49,169 nucleotides of DNA from Accumulibacter sp. (GTDB lineage: Bacteria; Pseudomonadota; Gammaproteobacteria; Burkholderiales; Rhodocyclaceae), in assembly GCA_017302455.1 (NCBI GenBank), contig JAFLDO010000036.1:1-49169 (forward strand), given 5' to 3'. The notes under the pieces are model-generated. The model made no database searches, was not told the DNA's origin, and was given only the letters and a program-made list of their open reading frames with translations. Every line of letters starts with the position of its first letter. Position 1 is the stretch's first letter. Below, in pieces: positions 1 to 32,317 of this stretch. A program made the translations under genes and the position numbers.

Positions 1-114
1 CAATCGGTCCGGGTAGGGCAAGTTGCGCCTGCTGCATGACGACGGACGGGAAATGGGGGAACTCATGCCGGAAACGAGGAATCCAGTTTCATTGAATATT
101 AGCAATTACTAATA

Positions 115-558
115 GTGCACCAACGCCTTGCGGCACCGTTCTTCTCTCAAAGTGAGAGACTATTCAATGACCATTGCGTTCGGGCGCTCGAGACGGCGTG
201 GGGCGTGTTCTATCCGCATCGGGACGGACCGCGTATGGCCGATCTGATCGCCCAGGGCATCAACTTAGACGATGCCGCGCATCAGGTCTGGCTCTGCGAC
301 CTTGAACAGATTCGTAGCTGTGATCTTGTGGTGGCGGTGCTCGACGGGCGAGTTCCCGATGAAGGCGTGTGCGTAGAACTCGGCCTTGCTAGCGGGTTGG
401 ACAAGATCGTTATCGGGTTGCTCACCGATTCCAGACGCTGCTTCCCCTGGGGCGCCAACCCAATGGTGACAGGATGTCTTTCGGCCATATGCACTGATCC
501 GTCGCTCCTTTTGAGAATGGTAAAGGAGTGCTTCGACGGGCAGGCTGCCCAAATCTAG
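115..558 (+). CDS. Nucleoside 2-deoxyribosyltransferase-like protein
   Basis: 147 residues from a GTG start; an in-frame TAG lies just upstream (100-102), so little extension is possible. The N-terminus (RLAAPFFSQSER) and the central stretch CDLVVAVLDG...DEGVCVELGLASGLDK match the nucleoside 2-deoxyribosyltransferase fold, in which these segments form the nucleotide-binding strand and carry the catalytic Glu (here in VCVELG). Family members exchange or hydrolyse the N-glycosidic bond of deoxynucleosides in the cytoplasm; some relatives only bind nucleotides. No convincing Shine-Dalgarno sequence is seen. The last codon and the TAG stop lie inside a group II intron 3' fragment on the other strand, so the native C-terminus may have been a few residues different. 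The length is normal for the family, so it may still work. Substrate unknown. Confidence 0.7.
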   Translation: MHQRLAAPFFSQSERLFNDHCVRALETAWGVFYPHRDGPRMADLIAQGINLDDAAHQVWLCDLEQIRSCDLVVAVLDGRVPDEGVCVELGLASGLDKIVIGLLTDSRRCFPWGANPMVTGCLSAICTDPSLLLRMVKECFDGQAAQI

Positions 559-2112: not shown

Positions 2113-2412
2113 GCCCAACGAACGAGGATAGATCGTGCGCAGCCACGAACTATCGGTCTGTTGGACGAGCCCGGGCCAGAGCGCTGGGCGCGCCCTCTGC
2201 AAATATCTTTTTTTGATTTACCCCAAAGGCATGAACGCCGGGGGGCTGGGAGCGGGAAGTCCCGAAGTGCCGGTGCCCAGGTGGCAAAGGTTTCGCGAAT
2301 GAGGCGGTTCTTTGCGTCGCGGGTGCGGAACTCCGGGCGGCCGAGTCGTTCAGCTTGGGGAAACTGAAGTCCCGAATGCGGCCGGGCAGCGCTGAGGGCT
2401 CGGCTTACATGA
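2113..2412. other. Intergenic, no gene recognised
   Basis: No reading frame here resembles a known protein. It contains a short T-run (about 2209-2216) after the small Cys-rich gene but no convincing stem before it. The right part lies beyond the 3' end of the IS91 relic and may hold that element's terminus, which I could not place. Confidence 0.4.
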
Positions 2413-3219
2413 TCAGAGGGCGACCCCGATGCGCGGCACGACCGCGACGACTGCGGACGACGTCGGTCGAATCCGCGTCCTGACGATCGCCATCTCGGCG
2501 CCACAGCACGAGCAAAGCATCGGTGGCCGCTCCTTGCGCGGTGGCTTGAAGCGGTTCGGATCGAACTTCAGCAAGAGATGCAGCAAGGCAATGAGGCGCT
2601 TGCAGTTGGCGTGCAGGAAGCCGAAATTGCGCGCGCGGCGAAAGCCCTTGGGCAGCACGTGCTGGAGAATCAGCCAGAGGAACTCAGCGCCGGTAAGCGA
2701 GCGCTTTTCCGACTTGCCGGTTTCGGCGTTGCGATAGCGGAAGCTCACCCGGCCATTCTCGCAGGCGAGGATGTCCTGTTCACGGATGACGCCGCGGTAG
2801 AGGTAACGACCGAGGTAGATCAGGGCCTTCTCGCCGCTGCCAACCGATTTGCAGTGCGCCACCCATTCCCGCGGATAGCACGGCGGCAGGCAAATGCCGG
2901 CCGCCTCGATCGCCGCCAGCATCTTGGCCCGAAAGACCTTGGCCATCGCCTTCTCGTTGAACAGGTAGGTGCCGTTCTTGCCGCGCCGCTTGCGTCGCCA
3001 GCGCGGCTTCGTCGCATCGACCGCCGCTGCGGGGACGACGAGATGGACATGCGGGTGGAAGTCGAGCCGACGCTAGTGCGTGTGCAGGACCGCGATCGCC
3101 CCCGGCGTCCCCTGCAACTGCCGGTCGTTCTGACTAAAGCGGTGCACCGTTTCCCAGGCACAGCGCATCAAAAAATCGAAGACGATGTCGGCGTGCGCCG
3201 CCGCCAGCCCGCAGATCAT
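2413..3219 (-). pseudogene. IS91-family transposase, truncated with internal stop
   Basis: The C-terminal half is open (2413-2946) and continues upstream in the same frame to an ATG at 3219. The core motif DFHPHVHLVVPAAAV is the HUH motif of IS91 (Y2) rolling-circle transposases. It is followed by W-RRK...GKNGTYLFN, YLGRYLYRG and a C-terminal CSCCGAEM knuckle. A TAG at 3073-3075 interrupts the frame in LHTH*RRLDFHPH, where relatives have a sense codon. The N-terminal zinc-finger region is missing: the frame begins at ICGLAAAHADIVF, so only about two thirds of the usual 400 residues remain. The ATG overlaps the stop of the recombinase upstream (ATGA). Confidence 0.8.
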
Positions 3220-3420
3220 CGCGGCGTCCCCTTGGCCAGGCGATAGCGGTCCATCAACGCGTTGATGCGGTCGATGGCGTGATGCTTAGTTTGATCCGTC
3301 AGATGGGTGTAGTGAACCGTCGTGAGAATCGAGTGATGCCGAGAATGCGCTGCACCTCGGGGAGCTCGACGCCCGCCTCGACGAGGTGTGTGGCTTAAGC
3401 GTGGCGCCTATGCCGAGTCC
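3216..3420 (-). pseudogene. Tyrosine recombinase C-terminal remnant (IS91 partner)
   Basis: Spliced over a one-base deletion, the minus strand reads ATHLVEAGVELPEVQRILG then HHSILTTVHYTHLTDQTK and ends RLAKGTPR*. This is the C-terminal box of XerC/D-like recombinases (usual LRHxxATHLLExG...LGHxSIxTTxxYTH), including the catalytic Tyr in HYTHLT. Damage: a TAA just before ATHLVE and the frameshift inside LGHHS. Many IS91-type elements carry such a recombinase just upstream of the transposase, overlapping by ATGA as here, so the two were one element. Nothing readable remains of its N-terminal part. Confidence 0.7.
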
Positions 3421-3518
3421 CGAGCAATGCCGAGTTCGAGCGTTTAGGCTATCAGGGCAGACCGGTTAGCGTCGGTCTACTCGGCATGGTTCTATTCTTC
3501 TTCCAGGGCGATACGTCC

Positions 3519-3559
3519 CTATGGACTACCTTGGATTGCTTTGTGGTGCCAGGAAGGGA
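3519..3559. repeat. attL-like direct repeat of the tRNA-Leu end
   Basis: The 32 bases at 3519-3550 (CTATGGACTACC...TGGTGCC) are identical to 13598-13629. After one missing C, AGGAAGGGA follows in both. At the far copy this sequence is the 3' end of tRNA-Leu plus 25 flanking bases. It marks the distal edge of a genomic island of about 10.1 kb. Confidence 0.85.
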
Positions 3560-3617
3560 CTGAAACAGCAAGCCACAACTCTTGCTAAACAAGGCTTCAC
3601 GCTTCTGGCATTTCTGA

Positions 3618-3637
3618 GTTACCCCGAGAGTTACCCC
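3618..3637. promoter_or_regulatory. Two GTTACCCC repeats (candidate integrase arm sites)
   Basis: GTTACCCC occurs at 3618-3625 and 3630-3637, 12 nt apart with spacer GAGA, just inside the left island edge. The same pair with the same spacing and spacer (4-nt GAGA) stands at 13489-13508 near the integrase stump. Repeats flanking the core on both sides are what arm-binding domains of P4-type integrases recognise. The role is inferred. Confidence 0.55.
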
Positions 3638-3691
3638 ACTTTTGTCGACGCTGCCCCTGAAAAGGGTGGGAGTATGCCCTGCCCCGCACCA

Positions 3692-3719
3692 AAGAAAAAC
3701 CCGGCACGCGGCCGGGTTG
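3692..3719 (-). terminator. Intrinsic terminator of the small-gene operon
   Basis: On the minus strand AACCCGGC and GCCGGGTT form an 8-bp stem with a 5-nt loop, followed by TTTTTCTTT. It lies 22 nt after the stop of the last gene of the four-gene operon. Confidence 0.85.
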
Positions 3720-3740
3720 GCGCTGCCGGACCGGTAGGAT

Positions 3741-4016
3741 TCAGCGGCCGTCGCCGACCAGCAAGCCAGTCAGGTTGGCCAGCTCACGGCACTCCTCGAC
3801 GATCGCGTCGTGGCAGGACCACATGAAACCGTCTTGTACCGCGACGCTTTGTTTCCTGAACGCCTCGCCGCCAACGCCCCAGGTCATCACCAGCATGGCG
3901 TCAAGGTGCATCAGCTTGACTTCCAACAGTTCGCGGACGTCGACAGAGGTGGCGCCGGGGGAGATGTCGTAGACGGACGAGTTGATGGACTGGCGGGGCT
4001 CGGCGATGGCGGTCAT
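3741..4016 (-). CDS. Small protein, fourth gene of micro-operon
   Basis: 91 residues, unrecognised by name. The second half (LEVKLMHLDAMLVMTWGVGGEAFRKQ...DGFMWSCHDAIVEECRELANL) is amphipathic helix with Cys and Trp, and resembles small proteins from pseudomonads and betaproteobacteria annotated only as DUF3077-like or hypothetical. No signal peptide or transmembrane segment. Its ATG overlaps the stop of the gene before it by 4 nt, implying coupled translation, and an intrinsic terminator follows. Confidence 0.65.
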   Translation of the reverse strand: MTAIAEPRQSINSSVYDISPGATSVDVRELLEVKLMHLDAMLVMTWGVGGEAFRKQSVAVQDGFMWSCHDAIVEECRELANLTGLLVGDGR

Positions 4017-4195
4017 CGTGAGTCCTCCTCGTGGTGGGCGCCCAGATCGGCGGCGGCAGAGAGAAACATCGAAGCGCCTTCCAGCGCGTCATCGGTCGAG
4101 ATGCCTTCGCTGACCACGAACAGCTGTGCAGAGCTGCCGGCCGGCGCGAAGTAGGGATTGGCTGCAGACGGGGTCACGTGCTGTGTCGCTCTCAT
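4013..4195 (-). CDS. DUF3077-like small protein, third gene of micro-operon
   Basis: 60 residues. The stretch LFVVSEGISTDDALEGASMFLSAAADLG fits the short pattern of DUF3077 proteins (F-V-xxG-x-x-x-DAL-xxAS-x-LL). These are small cytoplasmic proteins of unknown role, common on islands and near phage genes in pseudomonads. It overlaps its upstream and downstream neighbours by 4 nt each. Function unknown. Confidence 0.6.
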   Translation of the reverse strand: MRATQHVTPSAANPYFAPAGSSAQLFVVSEGISTDDALEGASMFLSAAADLGAHHEEDSR

Positions 4196-4425
4196 GGTTT
4201 CAGCCCTCCCGCGGCCGCCTCGTCGCGCCAGGTGTTCGCCACACGCGCAAACCTGTCGGCGACATGCATCCCGGCGACGATCAGGGCGTCGGTTGTCGAG
4301 GGGTTATCGTCGTCCTGGATGGCGCCCATGATGACCGACAGACAGGCGAAGGCATCGCCACAGCACTGGAAGTACGCAACGGCATCGGCGGCGGACAGCG
4401 GCATCGGGGTGGTCTTCTCAGCCAT
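4192..4425 (-). CDS. Small protein, second gene of micro-operon
   Basis: 77 residues, unrecognised. Predicted mostly helical: AADAVAYFQCCGDAFACLSVIMGAIQ, a DDDN-PSTTDAL turn, then IVAGMHVADRFARVANTWRDEAAA. It shares with the other three genes the layout of a short polar N-terminus followed by one or two helices rich in Ala, Leu and Cys. It overlaps the first gene by 8 nt and the third by 4 nt. GGAGGTGCGCC before the ATG gives a strong ribosome binding site. Confidence 0.6.
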   Translation of the reverse strand: MAEKTTPMPLSAADAVAYFQCCGDAFACLSVIMGAIQDDDNPSTTDALIVAGMHVADRFARVANTWRDEAAAGGLKP

Positions 4426-4687
4426 GGCGCACCTCCTTTCCGACGGCGGCCAGGTGCGGGTTTTCGCTCTCGTACTTCAGGGCGGCGCTGATGGTGCCAC
4501 ACAAGAGGTAGAGGCTGCCCAAGCTCGGCTCGGTGCCATCCGGCGGGTTGTCGACCTGGGACAGCAGGTAGCCCAGATCGTCGACCATGCGCGACAGGTT
4601 GCTGAGGGAATCCTCCGTAAAGGATCCGATGAGGGGATTGATGGTTGACGCGGCGGCGCGTCCAATGGGTGCGGAGTTGTGGGTCAT
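4418..4687 (-). CDS. Small protein, first gene of micro-operon
   Basis: 89 residues from the ATG at 4687, with AAGG about 10 nt before it; an upstream extension in the same frame is possible but has no similar support. The helices SLSNLSRMVDDLGYLLSQVD and SLGSLYLLCGTISAALKYESEN are the main features; there is no signal peptide. First of four tightly overlapping genes that share one terminator, so it is the likely site of transcription start. Function unknown. Confidence 0.6.
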   Translation of the reverse strand: MTHNSAPIGRAAASTINPLIGSFTEDSLSNLSRMVDDLGYLLSQVDNPPDGTEPSLGSLYLLCGTISAALKYESENPHLAAVGKEVRHG

Positions 4688-4834
4688 GGATTGCGCCTTT
4701 GTCTGAGACCAATGCGGTGGCCGGAGATCATGTGAAGTGGTGAGGCTGGCCGGGCGACGTTCGTGCGGAATCCCTGGCTGCGCTGGGTTGTCGAGACCTG
4801 GGGCCGGTGGGTGGGCGGCGCCGATTTCGGTCCA

Positions 4835-4886
4835 TGACAGCAGCCGACCCTTATGGAAAGCTTTGCATAAGGGTCGGCTACCGTCA
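4835..4886. repeat. 52-bp near-perfect palindrome
   Basis: Arms centred on 4860/4861. The core GCCGACCCTTATG (4843-4855) pairs fully with 4866-4878, AAAG with CTTT in the middle, and TGAC with GTCA at the tips. Only three of 26 pairs mismatch. There is no T-run on either side. It could be a large operator, a MITE-like element or a REP-type unit. Confidence 0.75.
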
Positions 4887-5329
4887 CTCACAATCCACCC
4901 GATCCGACCAATTGCGCGTGTCCCTGTCGAGTTCGCTGTGGAAACTGCCAATCATAGAATACTCCTGCGACCCGCCAGCGCCCACGCGCCCTCTTGGCAG
5001 AGGCAGTTCTGGACCCCCCTGAACATCTTGCCAACCCCCTTGCGCCGTGCCCAGGCACGCGGCTTTGGTGCGCTGTATGGTCTTTTTCAACGCGTCTGAG
5101 CACGGATCAGCCAGGTGCTCTTTGGCACGTTGAACGCACTCCTGAGGCCTGCGCCAACCCGGTCAGTGCGAAGCGGCTCCGCACTGCACGTACGAGATCA
5201 GTCTCAGCAGCGGCTGCCCGCGCCTCTCGCAAGCCCACCTGCAGATCGTTCGCCGATGTTCTCCTGACGCTGGCAACGTGCAGGCCTTCAGCGTTCGTGG
5301 CCGACGTCGCGCACCGATTTCCCCCGGAA

Positions 5330-5359
5330 TTGGTCCAGTCACGCACCCCGATGCATAAT
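5330..5359 (+). promoter_or_regulatory. Possible sigma-70 promoter of hsdMSR
   Basis: TTGGTC (5330-5335) and CATAAT (5354-5359) with an 18-nt spacer, about 36 nt upstream of the hsdM ATG. It is the best match in this gap, but in GC-rich DNA such calls are weak. Confidence 0.4.
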
Positions 5360-5394
5360 GGATAGCTGGATCAACAGACTGTGCTTGCCACCCC

Positions 5395-6942
5395 ATGCTC
5401 GACGACATCAAGAAGACCTTGTGGGCAACCGCCGACAAGCTGCGCGCCAACATGGATGCCGCCGAATACAAGCACCTGGTCCTCGGGCTGATCTTCGTCA
5501 AGTACATCTCGGACACCTTTGCCGCGCGGCGTGCCGAATTGGCGCGCCGCTTTGCTGACCCGGCCGACGATTACTACCTCGACGCGGCCGACCTGATCGC
5601 GGAAGAACTCGAAGATCGCGACTACTACCGCGAGGTGAACGTGTTCTGGGTGCCCGAATCCGCCCGCTGGGAAGCCCTGCGCACCGCCGCCAAGCAGCCG
5701 GACATCGGCAAGCGCATCGACGATGCCCTCACCCTCATCGAGGTCGAGAACCCCAAGCTCAAGGGCATCCTCGACAAGCGCTATGCGCGCGCCCAGTTGC
5801 CCGACGGCAAGCTCGGCGAACTGGTTGATCTGGTCTCCACCATCGGCTTCGGTGCCGACCCGGGCAAGGCCCGCGACGTGCTCGGGCAGGTCTATGAATA
5901 CTTCCTCGGCCAGTTCGCCAGCGCCGAAGGCAAGAAGGGCGGCCAGTTCTACACGCCGGCTTCCATCGTCAAGACTCTGGTTGCCGTGCTCGCCCCCCAC
6001 CATGGCAAGGTCTATGACCCGTGCTGCGGCTCCGGCGGTATGTTCGTCCAGTCCGAGAAATTCGTCGAGGCGCACGGGGGCAAGCTGGGTAACGTGTCCA
6101 TCTACGGTCAGGAGTCCAATCCGACGACCTGGCGCCTCGCCGCGATGAACCTCGCGATCCGTGGCATCGACTTCAACCTCGGCCGCGAGCCCGCCGATAC
6201 CTTCACCCGCAACCAGCACCCGGACCTGCGCGCCGACTTCATCCTGGCCAACCCGCCGTTCAACGTCAGCGACTGGTGGCATGGCAGCCTGGAAGGCGAC
6301 CCGCGCTGGGAGTTCGGCACCCCGCCGCAGGGCAATGCCAACTACGCGTGGTTGCAGCACATGCTGTACCACCTGAAGCCGAGCGGCCGCGCCGGCATCG
6401 TGCTGGCGAATGGCTCGATGAGTTCCAGCCAGAACAGCGAGGGTGACATCCGCCGGGCGATGGTCGATGCCGATGTGGTCGAGGTGATGATCGCGTTGCC
6501 GGGGCAACTTTTCTTCAACACGCAGATCCCCGCTTGTCTGTGGTTCCTGACCAAGCACAAAGCTGCTCGTCCGGGTGAAGTGCTGTTCATCGACGCCAGA
6601 AAGCTGGCCCGCATGATCAGCCGGGTACAGACGGAGTTGTCCGATGAAGTCATTGACCGCATTGCCGGCACCGTCGCTGCCTGGCGTGATGAGGCAGACG
6701 CTGAGGAGTATCAGGACATCCCTGGCTACTGTCGAAGCGTGAATCTGGCCGAGATCGCCGACCACGGCCACGTGCTGACGCCGGGGCGCTACGTGGGTGC
6801 CGAAGAGGTCGAGGACGACGACGAAGCCTTCGCCGACAAGATGCAGAAGCTGACCGAGAAGCTCGGCGAACAGATGGCGAAGGGGGCGGAGCTTGATGCT
6901 TTGATCCGGCAGAAGCTAGGAGGGCTGGGGTATGAATTTTGA
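5395..6942 (+). CDS. hsdM: Type I restriction-modification, methyltransferase subunit
   Basis: 515 residues. The N-terminal helical domain begins LWATADKLRANMDAAEYKHLVLGLIFVKYISD, typical of HsdM. GGQFYTP (182-188) precedes the SAM-binding motif DPCCGSGG (208-215) and the catalytic adenine-N6 motif NPPF (286-289). With HsdS it forms the M2S modification enzyme that methylates adenine in a split recognition site. The ATG has no clear ribosome binding site, but no better start lies upstream in frame. It overlaps hsdS by 11 nt. Full length with all motifs, so expected to be active. Confidence 0.96.
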   Translation: MLDDIKKTLWATADKLRANMDAAEYKHLVLGLIFVKYISDTFAARRAELARRFADPADDYYLDAADLIAEELEDRDYYREVNVFWVPESARWEALRTAAKQPDIGKRIDDALTLIEVENPKLKGILDKRYARAQLPDGKLGELVDLVSTIGFGADPGKARDVLGQVYEYFLGQFASAEGKKGGQFYTPASIVKTLVAVLAPHHGKVYDPCCGSGGMFVQSEKFVEAHGGKLGNVSIYGQESNPTTWRLAAMNLAIRGIDFNLGREPADTFTRNQHPDLRADFILANPPFNVSDWWHGSLEGDPRWEFGTPPQGNANYAWLQHMLYHLKPSGRAGIVLANGSMSSSQNSEGDIRRAMVDADVVEVMIALPGQLFFNTQIPACLWFLTKHKAARPGEVLFIDARKLARMISRVQTELSDEVIDRIAGTVAAWRDEADAEEYQDIPGYCRSVNLAEIADHGHVLTPGRYVGAEEVEDDDEAFADKMQKLTEKLGEQMAKGAELDALIRQKLGGLGYEF

Positions 6943-8266
6943 TCTTCCAGCGTTGCCAGAAGGCTGGGTGTATTCGTCCCTTGAAGATTGCGCGAGAGCT
7001 AACTCAATAAGCTATGGCGTGGTTCAGCCAGGGTCACCCGTTACAGGAGGGGTGCCAATCATTCGCGTCAATAATTTCCGTGGCACCCGTATTGATCTTT
7101 CTGAAACCATGCGAGTTGCGCCTGAGATAGAGGCTAAGTACGCGCGAACCCGTTTGGCTGGTGGCGAGGTGTTACTGACTCTGGTCGGTTCTGTCGGTCA
7201 GGTAGCTGTTGTTCCCGATGCACTGAAAGGCTTCAATGTGGCTCGGGCAGTTGCGGTTATTGACCCGCTTCAACACGTAAGTGCCGAGTGGATTGCCCTT
7301 TGCCTCAGGTCGCCACTATCGCAACACCTCTTGACCAGTAGGGCGAACACGACGGTTCAAACAACAATCAATCTCAAGGATGTTCGGGCCTTACCCATTC
7401 CTATGCCACCTGCGGCAGAGCGGCAAACTATCACCAAGATGGTGTCGGCTCTCGACGACCGCATCACCCTCCTGCGCGAGACCAACGCCACGCTCGAAGC
7501 CATCGCGCAGGCGCTGTTCAAGTCGTGGTTCGTCGATTTCGACCCCGTTCGCGCCAAGCAGGAAGGCCGCGCCCCGGAAGGGATGGACGAAGCCACCGCT
7601 GCGCTGTTTCCGGATGAGTTCGAGGAATCGGAGCTGGGACTGGTGCCGAGGGGGTGGCGTAGTTGCTCCTTCATCGAAACTATCACGGTGATCGGCGGAG
7701 GAACGCCGAAGACCTCGATCAGAGAATACTGGAATGGGCATATCCCGTGGTTCTCGGTCGTGGATGCGCCTGCAGTAACCGATGTCTTTGTTATCGACAC
7801 GGTAAAGCACATCACTGAACAAGGATTGCGTAATTCATCCACGAGTTTGCTTCCCCTTGGAACTACCATTATTTCGGCCCGAGGCACGGTAGGACGACTC
7901 GCGCTTGTCGGGCGAGAAATGGCGATGAATCAATCCTGTTACGGCTTGCGAGGAAAAGCCAGTGATGATTACTTCACCTATTTCAACACCTACCGAATTG
8001 TCGAGACATTGAAGCAAAGAACTCACGGTTCGGTCTTTGACACAATCACCCGAGACACTTTGGCCGGTGTTTGCGTCGTTTATCCAAATGGTGCGTTTAT
8101 CACAGCCTTCGAGCGCACGGTGTCGCCGGTCATGGAGCGAGTCAAGGAAAACCTTAAACAAGCCCAAACCCTCGCCACCCTGCGCGACACCCTGCTCCCT
8201 CGCCTGATCTCCGGCAAGCTGCGCCTGTCGGAGGCCGAAGCCGTGCTCGAGGAAGTCGCCGCATGA
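6932..8266 (+). CDS. hsdS: Type I restriction-modification, specificity subunit
   Basis: 444 residues with the normal two-TRD layout. TRD1 (about 1-170) is followed by the conserved helical spacer ([30 protein letters not shown], then [19 protein letters not shown]), TRD2 (about 230-400), and a second conserved helix ending [19 protein letters not shown]. Each TRD recognises one half of a bipartite DNA site, and the helices set the spacing. Codon choice and A+T content in the TRDs look different from hsdM and hsdR, as expected for segments that are swapped by recombination. Overlaps hsdM (11 nt) and hsdR (4 nt, ATGA). The recognition site cannot be read from sequence. Confidence 0.95.
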
Positions 8267-11200
8267 CCGAAGATCACCTCGAACAAGAAGCGCTCGGCTG
8301 GCTGACCGAAGTCGGCTACGACACCCTTTACGGCCCTGACATCGCCCCCGACGGCGCCAACCCGGAGCGCGCTGGCTACCAGCAGGTGCTGCTGCCGTTC
8401 CGGTTGCGCGAGGCGATTCACCGCCTGAACCCCTCCATCCCTCTCGCCGCCCGCGAGGATGCACTCAAGCAAGTGCTCGACCTCGGCATCCCGGCCTTGC
8501 TGTCGGCCAACCGCCACTTTCACAAGCTGCTGGTCGGCGGCGTACCGGTGCAATACCAGAAGGACGGCGAAACCCGGGGTGACCTGGTCCGCCTGATCGA
8601 CTGGACCAACCCCGCCAAGAACAAGTGGCTGGCGATCAACCAACACTCGATCAAGGGGCCGCACCACACCCGCCGGCCGGACATCATCCTGTTCATCAAC
8701 GGGCTGCCCCTGGTGTTGATCGAACTGAAGAACCCGGCCGACGGAAACGCGGACATCTGGCGGGCCTACGACCAGCTTCAGACCTACAAGGAACAGATTC
8801 CGGACGCCTTCCAGTACAACGAGGTGCTGATCATCTCCGACGGCAGCGAGGCACGCTTCGGATCCCTCTCGGCCAATGCCGAGCGATTCATGCAGTGGCG
8901 CACGATCGACGGGGTGGCGCTCGACCCACTCGGCGAATTCAACGAACTGGAGACGCTGGTACGCGGCCTGCTGGCTCCGGCCATCCTGCTCGACTACCTG
9001 CGCTTCTTCGTCCTCTTCGAAGATGACGGCGCATTGGTCAAGAAGATCGCCGGCTATCACCAGTTCCATGCGGTGCGCGCGGCGATCGATCAGGTGGTTA
9101 CCGCCTCGCGCCCCGGCGGTACGCACAAGGGCGGCGTCGTCTGGCATACGCAGGGCAGCGGCAAGAGCATCACGATGACCTGCTTCGCCGCCCGGGTGAT
9201 GCAGGAAGCGGTGATGGAGAACCCGACCATCGTCGTCATCACCGACCGCAACGACCTCGACGGCCAGCTGTTCGGCGTCTTCTCGCTGGCGCAGGACCTT
9301 CTGCGCGAGGAACCGGTACAAGCCAACACCCGGCAAGACCTGCGCGCCAAGCTCGGCAACCGCCCCTCGGGCGGCATCGTCTTCGCCACCATCCAGAAGT
9401 TCATGCCTGGCGAGGACGAGGACGCCTACCCGACCCTCTCCGACCGCCACAACATCGTGGTGATTGCCGACGAAGCCCACCGCACCCAGTACGGCTTCGA
9501 GGCCAGGCTCAAGACCGTCCGGGCGCCCCGGAACACGGCCGGCGACGGCGTCAACGACGCCAACGCGCGGCTCGCCGCCGAGCCCGCCGCGTCGTACCTT
9601 TCGCGCTACCAGGTCGGCTACGCCCAGCACCTGCGCGACGCCTTGCCCAATGCGACCTTCGTCGCCTTCACGGGGACCCCGGTATCGAGCGAGGACCGCG
9701 ACACGCGTGCCGTGTTCGGCGACTACATCCACGTCTACGACATGCAACAGGCGAAGGAGGATGGGGCGACCGTCGCCATCTACTTCGAGTCGCGCCTCGC
9801 AAAACTGTCGCTGAACGAGGCCGAGCTGCCGCACATCGACGACGAGGTCGATGAACTCGCCGAGGACGAGGAGGAAGGACAGCAGGCCCGGCTGAAGAGC
9901 AAGTGGGCAGCGCTCGAAAAGGTGGTCGGTGCCGAACCCCGTATCGCCAGCGTCGCCGCCGATCTGGTCGCCCACTTCGAAGAACGCAGCCAGGCCCAGA
10001 CCGGCAAGGCGATGGTCGTCGCCATGAGCCGCGAAATCTGCGTCCATCTCTACAACGAGATCACCAGGTTGCGCCCCGAGTGGCATGACGCCGATCCGGA
10101 AAAGGGGGCGATCAAGATCGTGATGACCGGCTCCGCCAGCGACAAGGCCCTGCTCCGGCCGCACATCTACAGCGCCCAGGTCAAGAAGCGCCTCGAAAAG
10201 CGCTTCAAGGATCCCGCGGATCCGCTGCGCATCGTCATCGTGCGGGACATGTGGCTGACCGGCTTCGATGCGCCCTGCGTGCATACGATGTACATCGACA
10301 AGCCGATGAAGGGCCACAACCTGATGCAGGCCATCGCCCGCGTCAATCGCGTGTTCAAGGACAAGCAGGGCGGGTTGGTGGTCGATTACATCGGCATCGC
10401 CAACGAACTCAAGAGCGCCCTCAAGGAATACACCGCCAGCCAGGGTCGCGGCCGGCCGACGGTCGATGTCGCTGAAGCGTATGCGGTGCTGGAGGAGAAA
10501 CTCGACATCCTGCGCGGGATGTTGCACGGCTTCGATTACAGCGACTTCCTGACCACCGGCCACCGGCGACTCGCCGGCGCCGCCAACCATGTGCTCGGGC
10601 AGAAGGACGGCAAGAAGCGCTTTGCGGATACCGCACTGGCGATGAGCAGGGCATTCACCCTCTGCTGCACACTGGACGCGGCCAAGGAAGTACGCGAAGA
10701 GGTCGCCTTCATGCAGGCGGTGAAGGTCATCCTGACCAAGCGCGACCTCAGTCAGCAGCGCCGTACGGATGAGCAGCGCGAACTGGCAATCCGGCAGATC
10801 ATCAATTCGGCCATCGTTTCCGAGGAAGTGGTCGATGTGTTCGACGCGGTCGGCCTCGACAAGCCGAACATCGGGATTCTCGACGACGCCTTTCTCGCCG
10901 AGGTGCGCAACCTGCCCGAGCGCAATCTTGCCGTCGAACTGCTGGAGCGCCTGCTCGAAGGGGAGATCAAGAGCCGCTTTGCCGGCAACGTGGTGCAGGC
11001 GAAGAAGTTCTCCGAGTTGCTGACCAACGTGATCAAGCGCTACCAGAACCGGGCCATCGAAACTGCGCAGGTCATCGAAGAACTGATCGAGATGGCCAAG
11101 AAGTTCCGCGCGGCGGCGAACCGGGGCGAGGCACTGGGGCTGACCGAAGACGAGGTTCGCTTCTACGATGCCTTGGCCGACAACGAATCGGCGGTACGTG

Positions 11201-11421
11201 AGCTGTCTGACGAAACCTTGAAGAAGATCGCCCACGAACTGACCGAGAGCCTGCGCCAGAACATCACCGTGGATTGGTCGGCGCGGGACAGCATCCGCGC
11301 CAGGCTTCGACTCATGGTCAAACGCATCCTCCGCAAGTACAAGTACCCCCCGGATCAGCAGGAGGCGGCAATCGAGCTGGTGCTGAAGCAGGCTGAGGTG
11401 TTGGGCGAAGAGTGGATGTGA
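8263..11421 (+). CDS. hsdR: Type I restriction-modification, restriction/translocase subunit
   Basis: 1052 residues. The N-terminal nuclease domain has RPD (138-140) ... IELK (153-156), the PD-(D/E)xK site that cuts DNA. The superfamily 2 motor follows with Walker A TQGSGKS (296-302), DEAH (403-406) and TGTP in [11 protein letters not shown]. Further motor and helical domains lead to a C-terminus that binds the M2S core. It pumps DNA past the bound complex and cuts far from the unmethylated site. Translation is coupled to hsdS through ATGA. Intact, so the host should restrict foreign DNA. Confidence 0.96.
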
Positions 11422-11645
11422 GCATTGCCGCGCTGGCGCAGTCGGAGCTGATCGGCCTGCACATGAGCCTGGGCGCCTGGATTCGGAACAACCTGGGGCT
11501 GTGGAAGGGGAACGATCGGTTGATGATGGCTGTTCGGGATGGCGATCAGCCGATGCACCCTGACGATGCATCGACGGCGATCGTCGAGGCGGTGTGGGAG
11601 AGGCTGCGGGAAATGCTGGAACTGTTTTGTCCCGACCCCGTCTGA
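11412..11645 (+). CDS. DUF6794-type small protein after hsdR
   Basis: 77 residues from a GTG at 11412 (a second GTG is at 11418), overlapping the end of hsdR. The pattern [22 protein letters not shown]...[19 protein letters not shown] is that of DUF6794-like domains (LHxxxGxxIRNxxGLWxxN, then HPDDAS). Such proteins turn up alone or near restriction and other defence genes; no activity is known to me. Overlap with hsdR means it is made with the restriction enzyme, so an accessory role is possible. Confidence 0.7.
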
Positions 11646-11870
11646 CGCATGGTGGCCTTACCAACTTGGCGACCCACACGCGGGTGAAGTGTTCAGATGT
11701 CGGTGCGAGCCTTGAACGCTATGTGCTTTGACGTCCGGACTCGCCGACTCGACGGTGGGTTCTTGTGACTTCAAGAATCGCCAATTCGGTGGGATCACCC
11801 TGTTGTCGAGGTGGAAGCGACATCACTTTTCGATCGGCGTGCCGGTCGGCTTCGAAGGAGGATCAAAGTC

Positions 11871-12197
11871 ATGAGGAATACCGCTCGCTGCGTCGGCCTG
11901 GCTGTCGGCGCTTTGATGTTTGTGTCGGTCGCAGCCCCTGTCTACGCTGGCGGGGCTAATTCGTCGGGCCCCTACGACCCTTACCCCGACAATGTTGGTG
12001 CACCGTCGGGCAACGGCAATGGGGTCGGCAATGCGTACGGAAAGCCAGCCGCCGGCACGGTTGGCAATGCTGATGCGAAAAACCCGCCTGGTCAGCTTCC
12101 TGGTCCATGGGATGCCAACAACGGGTACGAATGCGATGACAACAGCGGCATTGCCAAGGGGAACCCAGCGCACAGTGTCTGCGAGGAGCTGAAGTAG
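11871..12197 (+). CDS. Secreted Gly/Asn-rich protein of unknown function
   Basis: 108 residues with a strong AAGGAGGA ribosome binding site 8 nt before the ATG. Residues 1-26 form a classic signal peptide (RNTARC, hydrophobic core, APVYA cut). The mature part is low in hydrophobics with a SGPYDPY-type turn, a GNGNGVGNAYGKPAAG run, VGNADAKNPPGQ, and a tail GYECDDNSGIAKGNPAHSVC. The order PYDPY / GNGNG / GNAD.KNPPGQ / GYECD.N.GI..NPAH..C recurs in secreted proteins I associate mainly with actinobacteria, so transfer is likely. The two Cys of the tail may form a disulphide. No enzyme motif. Confidence 0.75.
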   Translation: MRNTARCVGLAVGALMFVSVAAPVYAGGANSSGPYDPYPDNVGAPSGNGNGVGNAYGKPAAGTVGNADAKNPPGQLPGPWDANNGYECDDNSGIAKGNPAHSVCEELK

Positions 12198-12534
12198 CAT
12201 GACTCTTGTGGACACCCTATCGCCACGCAAGTTGAGGACGTAAGGGTGTCCGGTGCGGTCCCGTCACGACGCCGTACTGCACAGTAGGACGTCGTGATAC
12301 CGGCTCATCGCAGAAGCAGCGGTGGGCAGAGTGTTCGCCGGCTGGCACATGATGGCGAACGCCCCCCCGGCTCTGCTCTGCAATACCGCCCACTGCGGAC
12401 CCGCACGGTGGGTGGTATTGCTGCACGCAGCCAGGATGCGTGTGGCGCGGTCGGCGCGGAGGCTTGTCGAATAAACGGTTCAGCTCGTGCCTTCGCTCGC
12501 ACGTTCCAACCATATTCGTCCGACGGCGCCGCGG
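12198..12534. other. Gene-free stretch with stacked palindromes
   Basis: Three inverted repeats follow each other. GGACACCCT/AGGGTGTCC spans 12210-12251 (24-nt loop) and may end the secreted-protein transcript. A 32-nt palindrome at 12265-12296 has outer arms CACGACG/CGTCGTG and inner TACTG/CAGTA. The domain V-like hairpin is at 12381-12420. No protein is readable between them; the stretch looks like debris of inserted elements. Confidence 0.5.
12381..12420 (+). repeat. Group II intron domain V-like hairpin
   Basis: CAATACCGCCCAC pairs with GTGGGTGGTATTG (one G-T pair). The central 30 or so bases match the minus-strand hairpin at 590-622 almost exactly (CCCACTGCGGACC-GCACGGTGGGTGGT, one difference). 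Domain VI does not follow, so it is at most an intron scrap. Confidence 0.45.
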
Positions 12535-13173
12535 TTAGGGAACGAGCTTCCCTAGGCCATGCTTCCCGTCCTTCAGCTTCGCGGGGCGGAAGGTCGATCG
12601 ATTGTCTCTCACCAGTCCATCGAGAATGTCGTCGGTTAGAGTCGGATCGATGCGACTGCGGATTCGGTCGTAGCTGACAAATTGATAGCCCCTCTGTCGC
12701 AAGTAGGAGAGGATCGAATTGACCCTCGGATCCTGCGGCGGGATGTCAGGCATCGCGCCGACAGCATCGAGATCCTCTTGCGAGGGTGACTCCGACTCAA
12801 GTTCACGGATGCGCTCGACAAGCAGGTTCCAAGGGAGTTGACCTGGCATAGAGAAGTCCAGATGTTGAATAGGTTCGAGGCGCGGGTGTACCTTGCACGG
12901 TTCAAGCCTCACGGGAAGGATTGTCTTGCCCTTGCCCAATCCGTAAGCCCACTCGAAGGTCACGTAAGACGAACTCGCGGAGTTTTCGCTCAATGCGACA
13001 AGGACAGCGACCGAATCGGAGATGCCGCGCTCGATTCCATCGCGCCAGTCGCTTCCGGCACGCAGTTGCCCGTGGTCTCGCCAAAGCATGATGCCCGACT
13101 CAGCGAGTTTGATACTGGCTAGCTCGGCAAAGTAGTGGTCCTTTGTCGAGTAGCTTAAGAAAATTGTCGGCAT
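12535..13173 (-). CDS. TIR-domain protein with C-terminal helical domain
   Basis: 212 residues from the ATG at 13173, which has GGAGG six nt before it. Residues 1-108 are a TIR domain: FLSYSTKD (box 1), LWRDHGQLRAGSDWRDGIERGI, then VLVALSENSASSSYVTFEWAYGLGKGKTILPVRL. E74 in TFEWAYG stands where catalytic TIR domains have the Glu that splits NAD+. Residues 150-210 look like a winged helix (ILSYLRQRGYQFVSYDRIRSRID...DDILDGLVRDN). Bacterial TIR proteins commonly act in anti-phage defence by depleting NAD+ or making signal molecules; a role here is inferred from its place with a type I R-M system on an island. Its 5' region lies on the broken integrase gene. Confidence 0.85.
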   Translation of the reverse strand: MPTIFLSYSTKDHYFAELASIKLAESGIMLWRDHGQLRAGSDWRDGIERGISDSVAVLVALSENSASSSYVTFEWAYGLGKGKTILPVRLEPCKVHPRLEPIQHLDFSMPGQLPWNLLVERIRELESESPSQEDLDAVGAMPDIPPQDPRVNSILSYLRQRGYQFVSYDRIRSRIDPTLTDDILDGLVRDNRSTFRPAKLKDGKHGLGKLVP

Positions 13174-13230
13174 CACGCACCTCCAGAAGGTCTCTTGCCA
13201 ATTCACCTGTAGAGTCGATTGGTCGCTCCG

Positions 13231-13399
13231 AAGCCGCGTCGGGATAGGTACCGAAAGGGAGCAGCTTTTCTTTGCCCTCGAAACTGTACCGGAAGCGCCA
13301 CCACTTGCCGCCGGCGGCGGTCACGATGAGGAACAACCCGAGCTTGACTGGTTTCGCGCCGGGCTTGGCGTTGCGTACTGTGGTGTCCGTGAGTGGCAT
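13231..13399 (-). pseudogene. Island integrase, N-terminal stump
   Basis: From an ATG at 13399 the frame reads PLTDTTVRNAKPGAKPVKL then GLFLIVTAAGGKWWRFRYSFEGKEKLLPFGTYPDA. This is the arm-binding DUF4102 domain of P4/CP4-57-type tyrosine integrases. Four or so residues (usual S/YDGGG) are missing after PVKL, and homology stops after about 56 residues, where the upstream region of the TIR gene takes over in the same frame. The catalytic domain is gone. Position beside tRNA-Leu and on the same strand as it is normal for such integrases, so this was the island's own. Confidence 0.85.
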
Positions 13400-13434
13400 A
13401 GCGGCCTGCGTCCGGGTTCGTTTCATCCCTTGGA

Positions 13435-13544
13435 GTTACCCCGGGGCCAAGAGGAATTACCCCAAAAGTTACCCCACCAGCAGCTGGACTTACCCCGAGA
13501 GTTACCGCAGTTTCTCGCCGGATGCTTTGGGACCATGTTACCCC
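13435..13544. promoter_or_regulatory. Cluster of six TTACCCC-type repeats (candidate arm sites)
   Basis: [ACG]TTACCCC stands at 13435, 13456, 13468, 13489 and 13537, with a variant GTTACCGC at 13501. All point the same way and lie between the integrase start and the attachment core. The 13489/13501 pair has the 12-nt spacing seen at 3618/3630. This fits arm-type binding sites of the lost integrase. Confidence 0.6.
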
Positions 13545-13563
13545 GCAATGGACAAAAGGCAAC

Positions 13564-13585
13564 AAAAAACCCGCACTTAGGCGGG
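13564..13585 (-). terminator. Intrinsic terminator downstream of tRNA-Leu
   Basis: On the minus strand CCCGC and GCGGG form a 5-bp stem with a 6-nt loop, followed by six T. It lies about 40 nt past the tRNA 3' end, just inside the island. Confidence 0.7.
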
Positions 13586-13597
13586 CTCTCTGGACTG

Positions 13598-13639
13598 CTA
13601 TGGACTACCTTGGATTGCTTTGTGGTGCCCAGGAAGGGA
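13598..13639. repeat. att repeat at the tRNA-Leu 3' end (proximal edge)
   Basis: Proximal copy of the 32-bp repeat at 3519-3550, plus nine more matching bases after a one-base difference. It covers the CCA end, acceptor strand and first T-arm bases of tRNA-Leu, plus 25 bases of downstream flank. The tRNA stays whole on this side, as is usual for tRNA-targeting islands. Confidence 0.85.
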
Positions 13640-13707
13640 ATCGAACCCCCACACCTTGCGGCGGCAGGACCTAAACCTGCTGCGTCTACCAATTTCGCCA
13701 CCTGGGC
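13623..13707 (-). tRNA. tRNA-Leu(UAG)
   Basis: 85 nt including an encoded CCA. The 5' acceptor strand GCCCAGG pairs with CCTGGGC. The D-arm has GGTAGACGC, the anticodon arm GCAGG-TTTAGGT-CCTGC gives anticodon TAG, the long variable arm of a class II tRNA follows (CCGCAAGG), and the T-arm reads GGGGGTTCGATTCCC. Discriminator A fits leucine. It is the integration target of the island at 3519-13639. Confidence 0.97.
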
Positions 13708-14311
13708 TCTGCCACCAACCAAACAGTATGCCGGACGACAGGGGCGCTCTGAACTCATCCCGGCGGCACCCGATGGCTCCCCTGCCCTCGCGCCAATACG
13801 GCATTCTACCCGGGACGGTCCCGCGCTGTCAGCTTCGCGAAGAGGGTTCCACGCCACCGGCAGGCCCAGCCTGGGCCGACACAGCGATCGGCCGACGGAT
13901 CGAGCAGGCGCCTTGCCACGTGCAGCCGGGCCTCGCGCGTCACGGTGCGGCGGGAGTGCCGTACCGCTCCCCGTCGCGGACGCGGAGGACGAAGACGAGG
14001 ATTTCTGGCATGATATGAAATTCGAGATCACCATCATTTCGGCCACACGACCGTAGCACCACGCAGCGCGCGGTTGTTGGGCTTGCAGAACGAGCCGGCT
14101 GCGCTGGATCTAATGACGGTCGAAAGGTCGAAAGCTCGGAAGGCCGTCTTCCCGCCGGAAGGGCTGCGCATGAGGGAATTGACGTGGGTCGCCCCCGGAT
14201 GCGCTTGGCGGCCACCGCTGGTGCCAGGACTGCCTGGCGAATGCCTGGAAGGAACGGGGGCTCCTGACCCGAACTCCCGGCTTCTCTCCCCCCATTACTC
14301 AGGAGCGCGAA
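13708..14311. other. Intergenic between tRNA-Leu and rfbA
   Basis: 600 bases without a recognisable gene. It must contain the leftward tRNA promoter and the rightward rfbAC promoter, but I see no clear -35/-10 pair for either. The last bases hold the AGGAG ribosome binding site of rfbA. Confidence 0.4.
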
Positions 14312-15226
14312 ATGACATCTGATCTCTTCAAGACACCGGCCGCCCATGCCCAATCCGACCGGCGTGGCATTATCCTGGCGGGAGGTTCGGGAACGCGCCT
14401 GTACCCGGCCACCCTCGCGGTGTCCAAGCAATTGCTGCCGATCTACGACAAACCCATGATCTACTACCCGCTGACAACGTTGATGCTGGCGGGGATTCGC
14501 GACTTCCTGATCATTTCGACGCCTCAGGACACGCCACGCTTCGCGCAATTGCTGGGCGATGGCCGGCGGTGGGGACTCGACATCCGCTACGCGGTCCAGC
14601 CCACGCCGGACGGCCTGGCGCAGGCGTTCATCATCGGCGCGGACTTCATCGGTAACCGACCTTCCGCCCTGGTGTTGGGCGACAACATCTTCTACGGTCA
14701 CGAGATCGCCAATGACCTGCAGTGGGCCAATGCGCGGCAGGAGGGGGCCACCGTGTTCGCCTACCGCGTCCAGGATCCACAGCGTTACGGGGTGGTCGAA
14801 TTCGACAGTACGGGACGCGCCATCAGCCTGGAAGAGAAGCCGAGCGAGCCGAAATCGCACTACGCCGTAACCGGGCTCTATTTCTACGACCAGCGCGTGG
14901 TGGACGTCGCCCGGAACCTGCGGCCCTCGCCACGCGGTGAACTCGAGATCACCGATGTCAACCGACAGTATCTGGACTGGGGCGACCTTTCTGTTTCGAT
15001 GATGGGCCGCGGCCATGCCTGGCTGGATACCGGAACCCATGAGTCACTCCTCGAGGCGAGCCTGTTCATCGAAACCATCGAGAAACGGCAGGGGCTGAAA
15101 ATCGCCTGCCCGGAGGAAATCGCTTACCACCAGGGTTACATCACGGCGAGTGAAGTCGAAGCGCTGGCCCAGCCGATGAAGAAGAACCTCTACGGGCAGT
15201 ATCTGCTGGCACTGCTCGACGAGTAG
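14312..15226 (+). CDS. rfbA: Glucose-1-phosphate thymidylyltransferase
   Basis: 304 residues. [14 protein letters not shown] is the nucleotidyltransferase signature, followed by [34 protein letters not shown] and VLGDNIFYG, all characteristic of RfbA/RmlA. The enzyme joins dTTP and glucose-1-phosphate to dTDP-glucose, the first step to dTDP-rhamnose in the cytoplasm. The ATG has AGGAG 8 nt ahead; the first 18 residues are an extra tail compared with most relatives. rfbC follows 59 nt downstream. rfbB and rfbD are not in this window, so the pathway must be completed elsewhere. Confidence 0.95.
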
Positions 15227-15285
15227 CGGCGTCGGCTGTTTTCCATGCCTGTGGATCCCCCTCCCCAACCTCTGGTGCCCTTGCC

Positions 15286-15828
15286 ATGAAACGAATTCCA
15301 ACCGACCTCCCCGATGTATGGATCGTCGAACCGAAGGTCTTCGGCGACGCCCGCGGCTTCTTCATGGAAACATGGAACCGCAGGACCTTTGCCGATCTGG
15401 GTCTGGACGTGGAGTTCGTCCAGGACAACCATTCGCGGTCCCGCCAGGGCGTACTGCGCGGACTCCACTACCAGATCCACGAACCGCAGGGCAAACTGGT
15501 CCGGGTCACCAGCGGCGAAGTGTTCGACGTGGCAGTGGATCTGCGCAGGTCGTCGCCGCATTTTGGCCGCTGGGCAGGGGTGACGCTCTCCGGCGAGAAC
15601 CAGCGCATGCTCTGGGTTCCGCCAGGCTTTGCCCATGGTTTCCTGGTGGTGTCGCCAGCAGCAGACTTTCTGTACAAGACCACCGCCTACTACGCACCGG
15701 AACATGAGCGCTGCGTCGCGTGGAACGACCCCGACATCGGCATCCGCTGGCCCCTCGATGACGAGCCTGCCCTGTCCGCCAAGGACCGTATCGGAACCCC
15801 CCTACGGCTGGCCGAAGCCTACGCCTGA
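15286..15828 (+). CDS. rfbC: dTDP-4-dehydrorhamnose 3,5-epimerase
   Basis: 180 residues, the normal RfbC/RmlC length. FGDARGFFMETWN, VQDNHSRSRQGVLRGLHYQ (H61 as the catalytic His) and the later WVPPGFAHGFLV are family landmarks of this cupin enzyme. It epimerises C3 and C5 of dTDP-4-keto-6-deoxyglucose on the way to dTDP-L-rhamnose, used in O-antigen or exopolysaccharide. Second gene after rfbA, probably on the same transcript. Confidence 0.95.
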   Translation: MKRIPTDLPDVWIVEPKVFGDARGFFMETWNRRTFADLGLDVEFVQDNHSRSRQGVLRGLHYQIHEPQGKLVRVTSGEVFDVAVDLRRSSPHFGRWAGVTLSGENQRMLWVPPGFAHGFLVVSPAADFLYKTTAYYAPEHERCVAWNDPDIGIRWPLDDEPALSAKDRIGTPLRLAEAYA

Positions 15829-24687: not shown

Positions 24688-26610
24688 TCAGAGTTCGACC
24701 TGCGCTCCGAGTTCGACGACGCGGTTCGGCGGAATTTTGAAGAATGCGGTCGCCGTATCGGCGTTGCGGAACATCCAGTTGAAAAGAACCTGCCGCCAGT
24801 GCGCCATTCGTGAATGCCGCGCTAGTGGCAGACCGACGACCGTTTCGCGGCCGAGGAAGAAGGACGTCTCCATCATCGCAAAGCACAGTCCGTGGGCCGC
24901 GCACCGCTCCAGGGCCTGCGGCAGGTCGGGGTCGTCCTTGAAGCCATAGCGGACGAACACGCGGTGAAACCCGGCCGGCAAGCTCTCGACGGCGATGCGC
25001 TCGTCTTCGGGAACGTGCGGGACGTCCTCGGTACTGACATTGAGAACGACAATCCGTTGGTGCAGCACCTTGTTGTGATTCAGGTTGTGCAATAGCGCCC
25101 GCGGCACGCCTTCCGGGTGGGCAGTCAAAAAGACGCCGGTACCGTCGACGCGCTGCGGTCCGCCCTCGGCAAGACCGGCGATGAAGGCGTCGAGTGGAAT
25201 GGCTTGCTCCTTCTGCCGTTCCGACAACAAGCGACGACCCAGCTTCCAGGTCGACAGCAGCACGAAGACCGAGACGCCGAGCACCAGCGGGAACCAACCG
25301 CCATCGAAGACCTTGATGATGTTGGCGGAAAAGAAAGCAAAATCGACGACGACGAAAAACACCAGGAACAGCGCCGCCCAGCCCCAACTCCATTTCCACA
25401 GCGCCCGGACGACGACGAACGCAAGGATCGTATCGATCATCATTGTCAGGGTAACCGCGATACCGTAGGCGGAAGCGAGGTTCGACGACGAGCGAAAGCC
25501 AAGCACGACGACGATGACGGCCAGCAGCAGCAGCCAGTTGATGTTCGGCACGTAGATCTGCCCCTTTTCGCGCTCCGAGGTAAACCTGACCTGGATGCGC
25601 GGGCAGTAACCGAGTTGCATCGCCTGACTGGTCAGCGAAAAAGCCCCGGAAATCACCGCTTGCGAGGCAATCACGGTCGCCGCGGTGGCGAGGACGACGA
25701 GCGGCACGAGCAGGCTCTCGCTCGGAACCATGAGAAAGAACGGGTTGTCGATCGCCTGCGGATTGCTGAGGATCAGCGCACCCTGCCCGAGGTAGTTGAG
25801 ATACAGGAGAGGAAAGACGGCCGCAAACCACGCCCACTTGATGGCGCGCCGACCGAAATGACCCATGTCGGCGTAGAGAGCTTCCCCGCCGGTGATCGCC
25901 AGCACCACCGAACCCAGCGCGAGAAACGACAGGCGCTGGTTTTCGGCGATGAAGGCCACCGCGTACCAGGGATTGACTGCCGCCAGAACCGCCGGAGTTT
26001 CGATCACCTTCCACAAGCCCAGCGCACCGAGAGTGGCAAACCAGAACAGCATCACCGGACCGAAAAGGGCCGCCACCGCCGCCGTGCCGCGCCGCTGAAA
26101 GAAGAACAGAAGAAAAAGGATGATCACCGCGATCGGCAGAACGTAGGGATCGAGTTGCGGCGTGACGACCTTCAGCCCCTCCACGGCACTCAGCACCGAC
26201 ATCGCCGGCGTGATCACCGCATCGCCGTAGAACAGTGCGGCGCCGAAGATGCCCAGTGCCGACATCAGCCAGAGCAGGCGCGGCGAGGCATTCGCTGTAC
26301 GCAGGGCGAGCGCGGTCAGCGCCATGATGCCTCCCTCGCCCTTGTTGTCGGCACGGGTGATGAAGAGGACGTACTTCAACGAAACGGTAATGGTCATCGC
26401 CCAGAAGACGAGCGAGAGGATACCCAGCACGTTGTCCGGCGTCACCGCCACCGGGTGATGGCCGGCAAAGATCTCGCGCACCGTATAGAGCGGACTGGTA
26501 CCGATGTCGCCGAAAACAACGCCCATTGCCGCCAGTGCGGCCGCCGCCAGACCCGGCTTCTCGCCCGGCTTCTCGCCCGGCTTGGCGCGCTCGGGCGCCG
26601 GCGCGGGCAC
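24688..26610 (-). CDS. kup: Low-affinity potassium transporter Kup
   Basis: About 640 residues. The GTG at 26610 has GGGAGG 5 nt ahead and is preferred; a GTG five codons further upstream (26625) lacks such a site. LAAMGVVFGDIGTSPLYTVREIF is the Kup signature, followed by KYVLFITRADNKGEGGIMAL and about 12 membrane segments, then a cytoplasmic tail ending in RVVELGAQVEL. Kup brings in K+ with protons. The N-terminus before the signature carries a short GEKPGEKPG repeat encoded by a 12-bp tandem copy. Confidence 0.94.
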   Translation of the reverse strand: MPAPAPERAKPGEKPGEKPGLAAAALAAMGVVFGDIGTSPLYTVREIFAGHHPVAVTPDNVLGILSLVFWAMTITVSLKYVLFITRADNKGEGGIMALTALALRTANASPRLLWLMSALGIFGAALFYGDAVITPAMSVLSAVEGLKVVTPQLDPYVLPIAVIILFLLFFFQRRGTAAVAALFGPVMLFWFATLGALGLWKVIETPAVLAAVNPWYAVAFIAENQRLSFLALGSVVLAITGGEALYADMGHFGRRAIKWAWFAAVFPLLYLNYLGQGALILSNPQAIDNPFFLMVPSESLLVPLVVLATAATVIASQAVISGAFSLTSQAMQLGYCPRIQVRFTSEREKGQIYVPNINWLLLLAVIVVVLGFRSSSNLASAYGIAVTLTMMIDTILAFVVVRALWKWSWGWAALFLVFFVVVDFAFFSANIIKVFDGGWFPLVLGVSVFVLLSTWKLGRRLLSERQKEQAIPLDAFIAGLAEGGPQRVDGTGVFLTAHPEGVPRALLHNLNHNKVLHQRIVVLNVSTEDVPHVPEDERIAVESLPAGFHRVFVRYGFKDDPDLPQALERCAAHGLCFAMMETSFFLGRETVVGLPLARHSRMAHWRQVLFNWMFRNADTATAFFKIPPNRVVELGAQVEL

Positions 26611-27813: not shown

Positions 27814-27819
27814 ATCCAC

Positions 27820-29865: not shown

Positions 29866-29960
29866 TCCGTGGCCACGCGCGGGGCCGTCGCTGTTGCCGG
29901 CGCCCGCTTCCCTCGCCGGATCAGGGGAGAATTCAGGGTTCCTCGGCGCACGGACCGTCC

Positions 29961-30731: not shown

Positions 30732-30862
30732 GGCTGAAGACTCTCCCGGATTCCGCCTGACGGCTCCGGAGCGGCGGCCAGCAACCCGTACCCGGTGCCT
30801 GAGGCAACGAAGCGTCACTTTAGCAGCCTATCGGCCTCGCCGTCGAAAAACGGCGACAGGCT

Positions 30863-32308: not shown

Positions 32309-32317
32309 GTCGCTGCC

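Follow-up and report, generated by a model that had tools for sequence, protein, structure and literature searches.

Probable remains of a tRNA-integrated element with restriction-modification and TIR genes at tRNA-Leu(UAG) in Accumulibacter sp.

A stretch of 49,169 bases from Accumulibacter sp. (assembly GCA_017302455.1, contig JAFLDO010000036.1), which is one entire contig of a draft genome in 126 contigs and is referred to here as the window, was analysed around a block of about 10 kb beside a tRNA-Leu(UAG) gene. Positions 3551-13597 are very probably a decayed, now immobile tRNA-integrated element that kept its defence cargo, a type I restriction-modification (R-M) operon and a gene for a TIR-domain protein. 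The original prediction had proposed a defence island in a tRNA gene with a destroyed integrase, and this is the best explanation of the block, given sister elements in the genus, including one that occupies the same tRNA and whose integrase is intact. The ends, the direct repeat, the tRNA, the truncated integrase, the uninterrupted R-M genes and the sister elements are all seen directly in the DNA. In the proposed course of events, a tyrosine integrase of the Arm-DNA-bind_3 type would have inserted the element at the 3' end of the tRNA gene, so that the tRNA stayed complete and a copy of the site was displaced by 10 kb; later this element would have lost its replication genes and, from the integrase, the central and catalytic parts.

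The target gene, tRNA-Leu(UAG) (13623-13707, minus strand, anticodon TAG), is complete and is the sole tRNA detected in the window. The exact direct repeat of 32 nucleotides that had been predicted to join its 3' end to a copy 10 kb away was found again at both positions (3519-3550 and 13598-13629), with seven of its bases within the tRNA gene and the other 25 immediately downstream. It extends to 3564 and 13645, respectively, at 93.75% identity over 48 columns with one base missing, and the chance of an exact pair of 32 bases within 20 kb was estimated arithmetically at about 1e-11. By this repeat comparison, the near attachment-site copy (13598-13645, plus strand) overlaps the tRNA 3' end. 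The far copy (3519-3564, plus strand), exact to 3550 and with one base missing by 3564, is a displaced piece of that end, which forms no tRNA when the locus is checked in its own genome; the block thus has a complete tRNA at one end and a direct repeat at the other. The same base is missing from the far copies of the window and of the genus genome G009, as expected if that part arrived with the element. Of the span first given for the island, 3519-13639, the repeat-bounded block is real and the right end overshoots the exact repeat by 10 bases. When positions 13580-13710 were searched against the own genome, four places were matched, namely the query itself, the left copy, tRNA-Leu(CAG) (80%) and tRNA-Leu(CAA) (72%); since all are tRNA-Leu ends or the left copy, the repeat is not scattered over unrelated spots, a finding that had been named as one that would speak against the island.

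Adjoining the tRNA, in the usual place for an integrase and as originally described, lies an integrase stump (13239-13426, minus strand) whose frame matches Arm-DNA-bind_3 only (Pfam profile search, E 4e-11). Its similarity to the integrases of G009 and G006 stops at about 13238, and the sequence from there up to the TIR start is different. The integrase of G009 is a 460-residue open frame with arm, central and catalytic domains; of these the window keeps the arm-binding domain alone, beside the tRNA as in G009, where the gene is intact. With the central and catalytic parts gone, the window element would, judged by its genes, be unable to move by its own means. A search of its draft genome with the G009 integrase (E<=0.001) returned the stump and its upstream stretch alone, and no second family member. 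The tRNA-Leu(UAG) loci were examined in 20 of the 27 relatives of the genus, the other seven being left out. The site is much used: an integrase relative lay at most 0.6 kb from the tRNA in 8 of the 20 (as one long match in three, broken in four and running off the contig end in one) and was lacking in 12, four of which have fewer than 750 bases on that side of the tRNA.

The far end carries a conserved motif (3608-3664, plus strand) that starts about 50 bases inward of the left repeat copy and contains two GTTACCCC sites. Sites of the GTTACCCC type also cluster at the integrase end (13433-13545), upstream of the integrase start, and similar clusters are found in G006, G007 and G009. Lambda-type integrases bind arm sites, and by analogy the paired GTTACCCC sites at both ends are putative integrase arm sites. 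Positions 3551-3665 were searched against 28 genomes of the genus, and five of the ten matches were counted as far ends: the window itself, G002:C8 (91% identity over 57 bases), G008:C43 (96% over 45), G009:C78 (90% over 50) and G008:C99 (92% over 36). The uncounted matches are four short ones to putative arm sites at near ends (G006:C32, G002:C8:9190, G000:C57:13487 and G009:C78:57484), together with a 21-base match elsewhere at G000:C35. For every one of the five far ends, the contig that carries it also has a matching near end, 7.4-13.3 kb away, and a repeat of the tRNA end is present at four of them. The window element and the G009:C78 element both use tRNA-Leu(UAG), with repeats of 32 bases and of 9 + 18 bases flanking one missing base; the G008:C99 element is in tRNA-Leu(CAA) with a repeat of 25 bases, and the G002:C8 element in tRNA-Thr(UGU) with one of 9 + 16 bases. 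G008:C43, again at tRNA-Leu(UAG), has no far repeat and a near end without an integrase.

The sister elements indicate what the window copy may once have contained. Besides an integrase and variable cargo, related elements of the genus have either a primase-helicase of the DUF3987 type or a pair of AAA and Toprim proteins. The G009 element, of the same architecture and at the same tRNA, encodes, besides the intact integrase, a DUF3987/Toprim protein, and its cargo consists of a subtilase identified as IetS and an AAA ATPase identified as IetA (PADLOC, E 2e-248 and 1e-135), plus a DEDDh-like exonuclease. The G002 element has a three-domain integrase and a single protein with PriCT_2, DUF3987 and Toprim domains, and the G008:C99 element has an AAA_25 protein and another protein 40% identical to the Toprim part of the G009 protein. 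When nine sister core proteins were compared with the window, only the two integrases gave a meaningful match, and no primase match was found. The sister elements look like satellites or small integrative elements, and we infer a satellite lifestyle for the family. The G008:C99 element also encodes a Phage_Nu1 protein for DNA packaging, which hints that packaging may be phage-style. Among viral contigs, the end-motif pattern had no exact match, and the integrase had two relatives at 65-66% among 18 candidate stretches. No report of this element family was recognised among the open-licence papers listed.

The complete type I R-M operon of the original prediction is borne out: hsdM (5395-6942), hsdS (6932-8266) and hsdR (8263-11421), all on the plus strand and matched by type I profiles, each have one stop, which is terminal. 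DPCCGSG and NPPF are kept in HsdM and D-x14-ExK and DEAH in HsdR, which we take to be the catalytic motifs, and HsdR matches that of EcoR124I at an E value of about 1e-30. From its sequence, the system is predicted to methylate the host's DNA at the site that HsdS specifies, and to cleave incoming DNA that lacks this methylation. A closely similar operon lies beside the same tRNA in G008, with DNA identities to the window of 93.4% in hsdM and 93.8% in hsdR. These values exceed the background identity to that genome, which is 81% for rmlA and, in the three longest matches that window positions 26000-45000 have there, 83, 84 and 78%, and so suggest that the operon was transferred within the genus. 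Over its full length, HsdS shows about 40% identity between the two, with a nearly identical middle, a similar end and different target-recognition parts. More distant relatives of the operon, at about 76-81% DNA identity, occur on plasmids of Acidovorax, Polaromonas, Azotobacter and Pseudomonas, where the setting is different. An hsd-TIR block at another place without repeats, which had been named as contrary evidence, did not appear; the only close hsd operon, in a comparison that covers the tRNA loci of the 20 relatives rather than their whole genomes, is that of G008 at the same tRNA.

The predicted TIR protein inside the island is likewise present as a gene for 212 residues (12535-13173, minus strand) with a TIR_2 match (Pfam, E 6e-23). 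Its C-terminal part, of about 100 residues, is conserved in orthologues, which were found, with the protein minus its first residue as query, in Candidatus Propionivibrio aalborgensis (70%), a planctomycete metagenome-assembled genome (72%) and G099, of the same family (52%). Structure prediction was poor (mean pLDDT 55), with residues 151-210 in blocks of 73-88, and the order of helices and strands in the C-terminus is a hint of some resemblance to a winged helix. Foldseek with this model gave no match at E<=0.001, its top list mixing TIR domains with unrelated chains, and comparison with PDB sequences gave none at E<=0.01. The protein probably acts on nicotinamide adenine dinucleotide during infection. 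As regards Thoeris, which pairs a ThsB-type TIR protein with ThsA, ThsB_TIR stayed under the Pfam cut-off, ThsB in PADLOC was matched only at E 0.05, and no ThsA was found among the ten island proteins scanned. Since the start codon of the TIR gene falls inside the open frame of the integrase stump, the former integrase promoter may now drive this gene. A promoter scan found one site against 1.9 expected. None of the plasmid records searched covers 80% of the TIR gene.

Ten proteins were profile-checked, eight of them from the three loci with TIR orthologues. In P. aalborgensis, a protein 5.5 kb from the TIR gene matches HSDR_N_2 slightly under the cut-off. An Mrr_cat protein, which also has a TIR_2 match, and a CHAT protein lie 1.5-3 kb from the planctomycete orthologue, which hints at a defence setting there, and near the same orthologue a TIR_2-like part is fused to an Mrr_cat nuclease domain (L122:4818-5675).

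Several observations weigh against the reading of the block as a decayed tRNA-integrated element. No hsdMSR operon adjoins any of the three TIR orthologues (frames judged by eye), so a fixed TIR-hsd system is not supported and TIR and R-M may have arrived separately. The far-end motif of G008:C43 adjoins a fragment of a different integrase, with unidentified genes between the motif and hsdM, and as this locus also has no repeat and no near-end integrase, it is a hybrid. The search of the own genome for a further integrase rested on a draft of 126 contigs. The block has the same guanine-cytosine content as its left flank (0.616, with 0.659 in the right flank). Finally, no relative was found with both flanks and hence no empty site; the debris of insertion sequences beyond the left copy stands in the way of showing one, and the left-flank query led to multi-copy, insertion-sequence-like DNA. 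The right-flank query (13560-14420) had matches in 61 of 61 genomes, and among the matches listed these cover query positions 1-163 only (the tRNA and its edges), bar one in rmlA. This gene was matched in 27 of the 28 genomes of the genus, the own one included, and among the matches listed it is on a different contig from the tRNA or more than 700 kb away.

It is accordingly conceivable, though we consider it rather unlikely, that the block is a patchwork in which the ends belong to a decayed element and the hsd operon and TIR gene were inserted later, so that R-M was never its cargo; this would be compatible with a decayed tRNA-integrated element. The hsd similarity between the window and G008 begins about 80 bases upstream of hsdM and the genes on either side are not common to both, a REP-like repeat lies between the secreted-protein and TIR genes, and insertion-sequence remnants stand immediately outside the block, all of which, with the lone TIR orthologues, would fit later insertion. 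Against this, the two hsd copies are bounded by ends of one kind at the same tRNA, and a defence system is also the cargo of a further family member. An improbable alternative is that two integrations occurred in tandem, in which case 3519-13629 would not be one element and an older neighbour, since destroyed, would have left its near end as the left copy. The 25 repeat bases outside the tRNA resemble an integrase-side end (TGGACT repeats) and exceed the 9 and 18 bases common to the two copies in G009, and G008:C43 is an example of such a hybrid; yet the far-end motif stands inward of the left copy with the orientation that it has in G009 and at much the same spacing, and TGGACT-type tails can belong to the target, as they also follow the tRNA in relatives without a related integrase in the stretch read, e.g. 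G021. That the repeat is due to chance or misassembly, the hsd genes being ordinary chromosomal DNA beside a tRNA, hardly merits consideration even for one full contig of a 126-contig draft, in view of 32 exact bases, a conserved end motif, an integrase stump where one is expected and sister elements that use this tRNA too.

A decayed integrated element with retained defence genes therefore remains our preferred reading. As to the defence cargo of the original prediction, R-M is clear from the sequence and TIR likely, and the small genes and the secreted protein are without such support. All four of the small genes described are open frames in the open reading frame list, overlapping on the minus strand (3741-4016, 4013-4195, 4192-4425 and 4418-4687). 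Relatives were found for the first and the fourth only. The first has them in five other genomes out of 199 family genomes searched (own included), two of the five having 16 and 12 copies, and a relative of the fourth adjoins one of these. Part of the G008:C99 element is similar to the second, which matches DUF3077 under the Pfam cut-off. A small DUF6794 protein (11412-11645, plus strand; PF20594, E 1e-13) overlaps the end of hsdR. The frame of the putative secreted protein (11871-12197, plus strand) is there as predicted, its signal peptide being judged by eye only, and searches of Pfam, PADLOC, NCBIfam and plasmids gave nothing for it at the thresholds applied. Between this gene and the TIR gene lies, at 12385-12416, an inverted copy of a 32-base palindrome-like repeat at 590-621; with up to two mismatches allowed, this repeat occurs three times in the own genome. 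The repeat at 590-621 adjoins a frame (613-1107) that by eye is like a REP-associated transposase and has no Pfam match.

Outside the left end, 2117-3407 is what is left of a Y2-transposase (IS91-type) element, to which both the own genome and the genus have relatives at about 88%; compared with three other copies, it lacks about 300 bases near 3211. The other copies diverge from the window at 3407, and 3407-3519 is unplaced DNA. Window positions 1-127 recur unchanged at the end of contig G000:C116, which shows that the window contig ends in a repeat. On the other side of the tRNA, 13708-15828 contains rmlA and rmlC; in the relatives read this place is taken by other genes, frequently ones that by eye are squalene/phytoene-synthase-like or rdgC-like. 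A plasmid origin of the whole block was rejected, as 15 records matched and none covers 80% of the query, the best reaching about 46%, over hsd. A phage origin was also rejected, the two phage records matched covering the tRNA gene only.

The window may illustrate a step in the fixation of mobile defence cargo in a host, with catalytic and replication genes lost and the R-M genes uninterrupted. Sister species with interchangeable cargo at a common tRNA site lend themselves to the study of how R-M specificity is swapped, and the conserved end motif is a handle for locating further elements. More tentatively, and with considerable doubt, the window copy could be the fossil of an undescribed satellite-like family of the genus, defined by the conserved GTTACCCC end motif, an Arm-DNA-bind_3 integrase using tRNA-Leu(UAG), tRNA-Leu(CAA) or tRNA-Thr(UGU), a primase of the DUF3987 type and a slot in which defence genes are exchanged (specificity-swapped type I R-M, IetAS), and its TIR protein with the conserved C-terminal part an unrecognised single-gene defence.

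In comparison with known systems, the R-M operon is like the EcoR124I type in its complete hsdM-hsdS-hsdR set and in the sequence of HsdR, and differs in the DUF6794 gene that overlaps hsdR. According to the available portion of the report, integrase-only defence islands of E. coli have defence genes next to an integrase, often at tRNA hotspots, with no other known mobility genes (PMC10121019); for the window copy, whose integrase is destroyed, an origin is suggested by sister elements that have replication genes. PICMI satellites of Vibrionaceae carry type I and II R-M among other systems, as far as excerpts of their description indicate (PMC10803314), and the sister elements resemble them in joining an integrase, a DUF3987 protein and defence cargo. 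The integrase and DUF3987-type primase occur together in the sisters G009 and G002, whereas the window copy has the integrase stump and no primase match. The target here is a tRNA gene and not fis as in the part of that description available, and no helper phage is known for these elements; AlpA and Fis genes, which with integration at fis also mark PICMI, were not searched for. P4-like satellites have an antiviral hotspot that swaps defence genes, R-M and TIR among them, in the sections available (PMC9122126), and are alike as small integrated elements with an exchangeable defence slot, in a different host group. In architecture the block is like the tRNA-targeted islands of tyrosine integrases catalogued by Islander, which, in the portion of that work at hand, have a complete tRNA at one end, a displaced fragment at the other and an integrase by the tRNA (PMC4383910), the block differing in its truncated integrase; the window copy is a fairly ordinary but clear example of this known kind of tRNA-targeted element.

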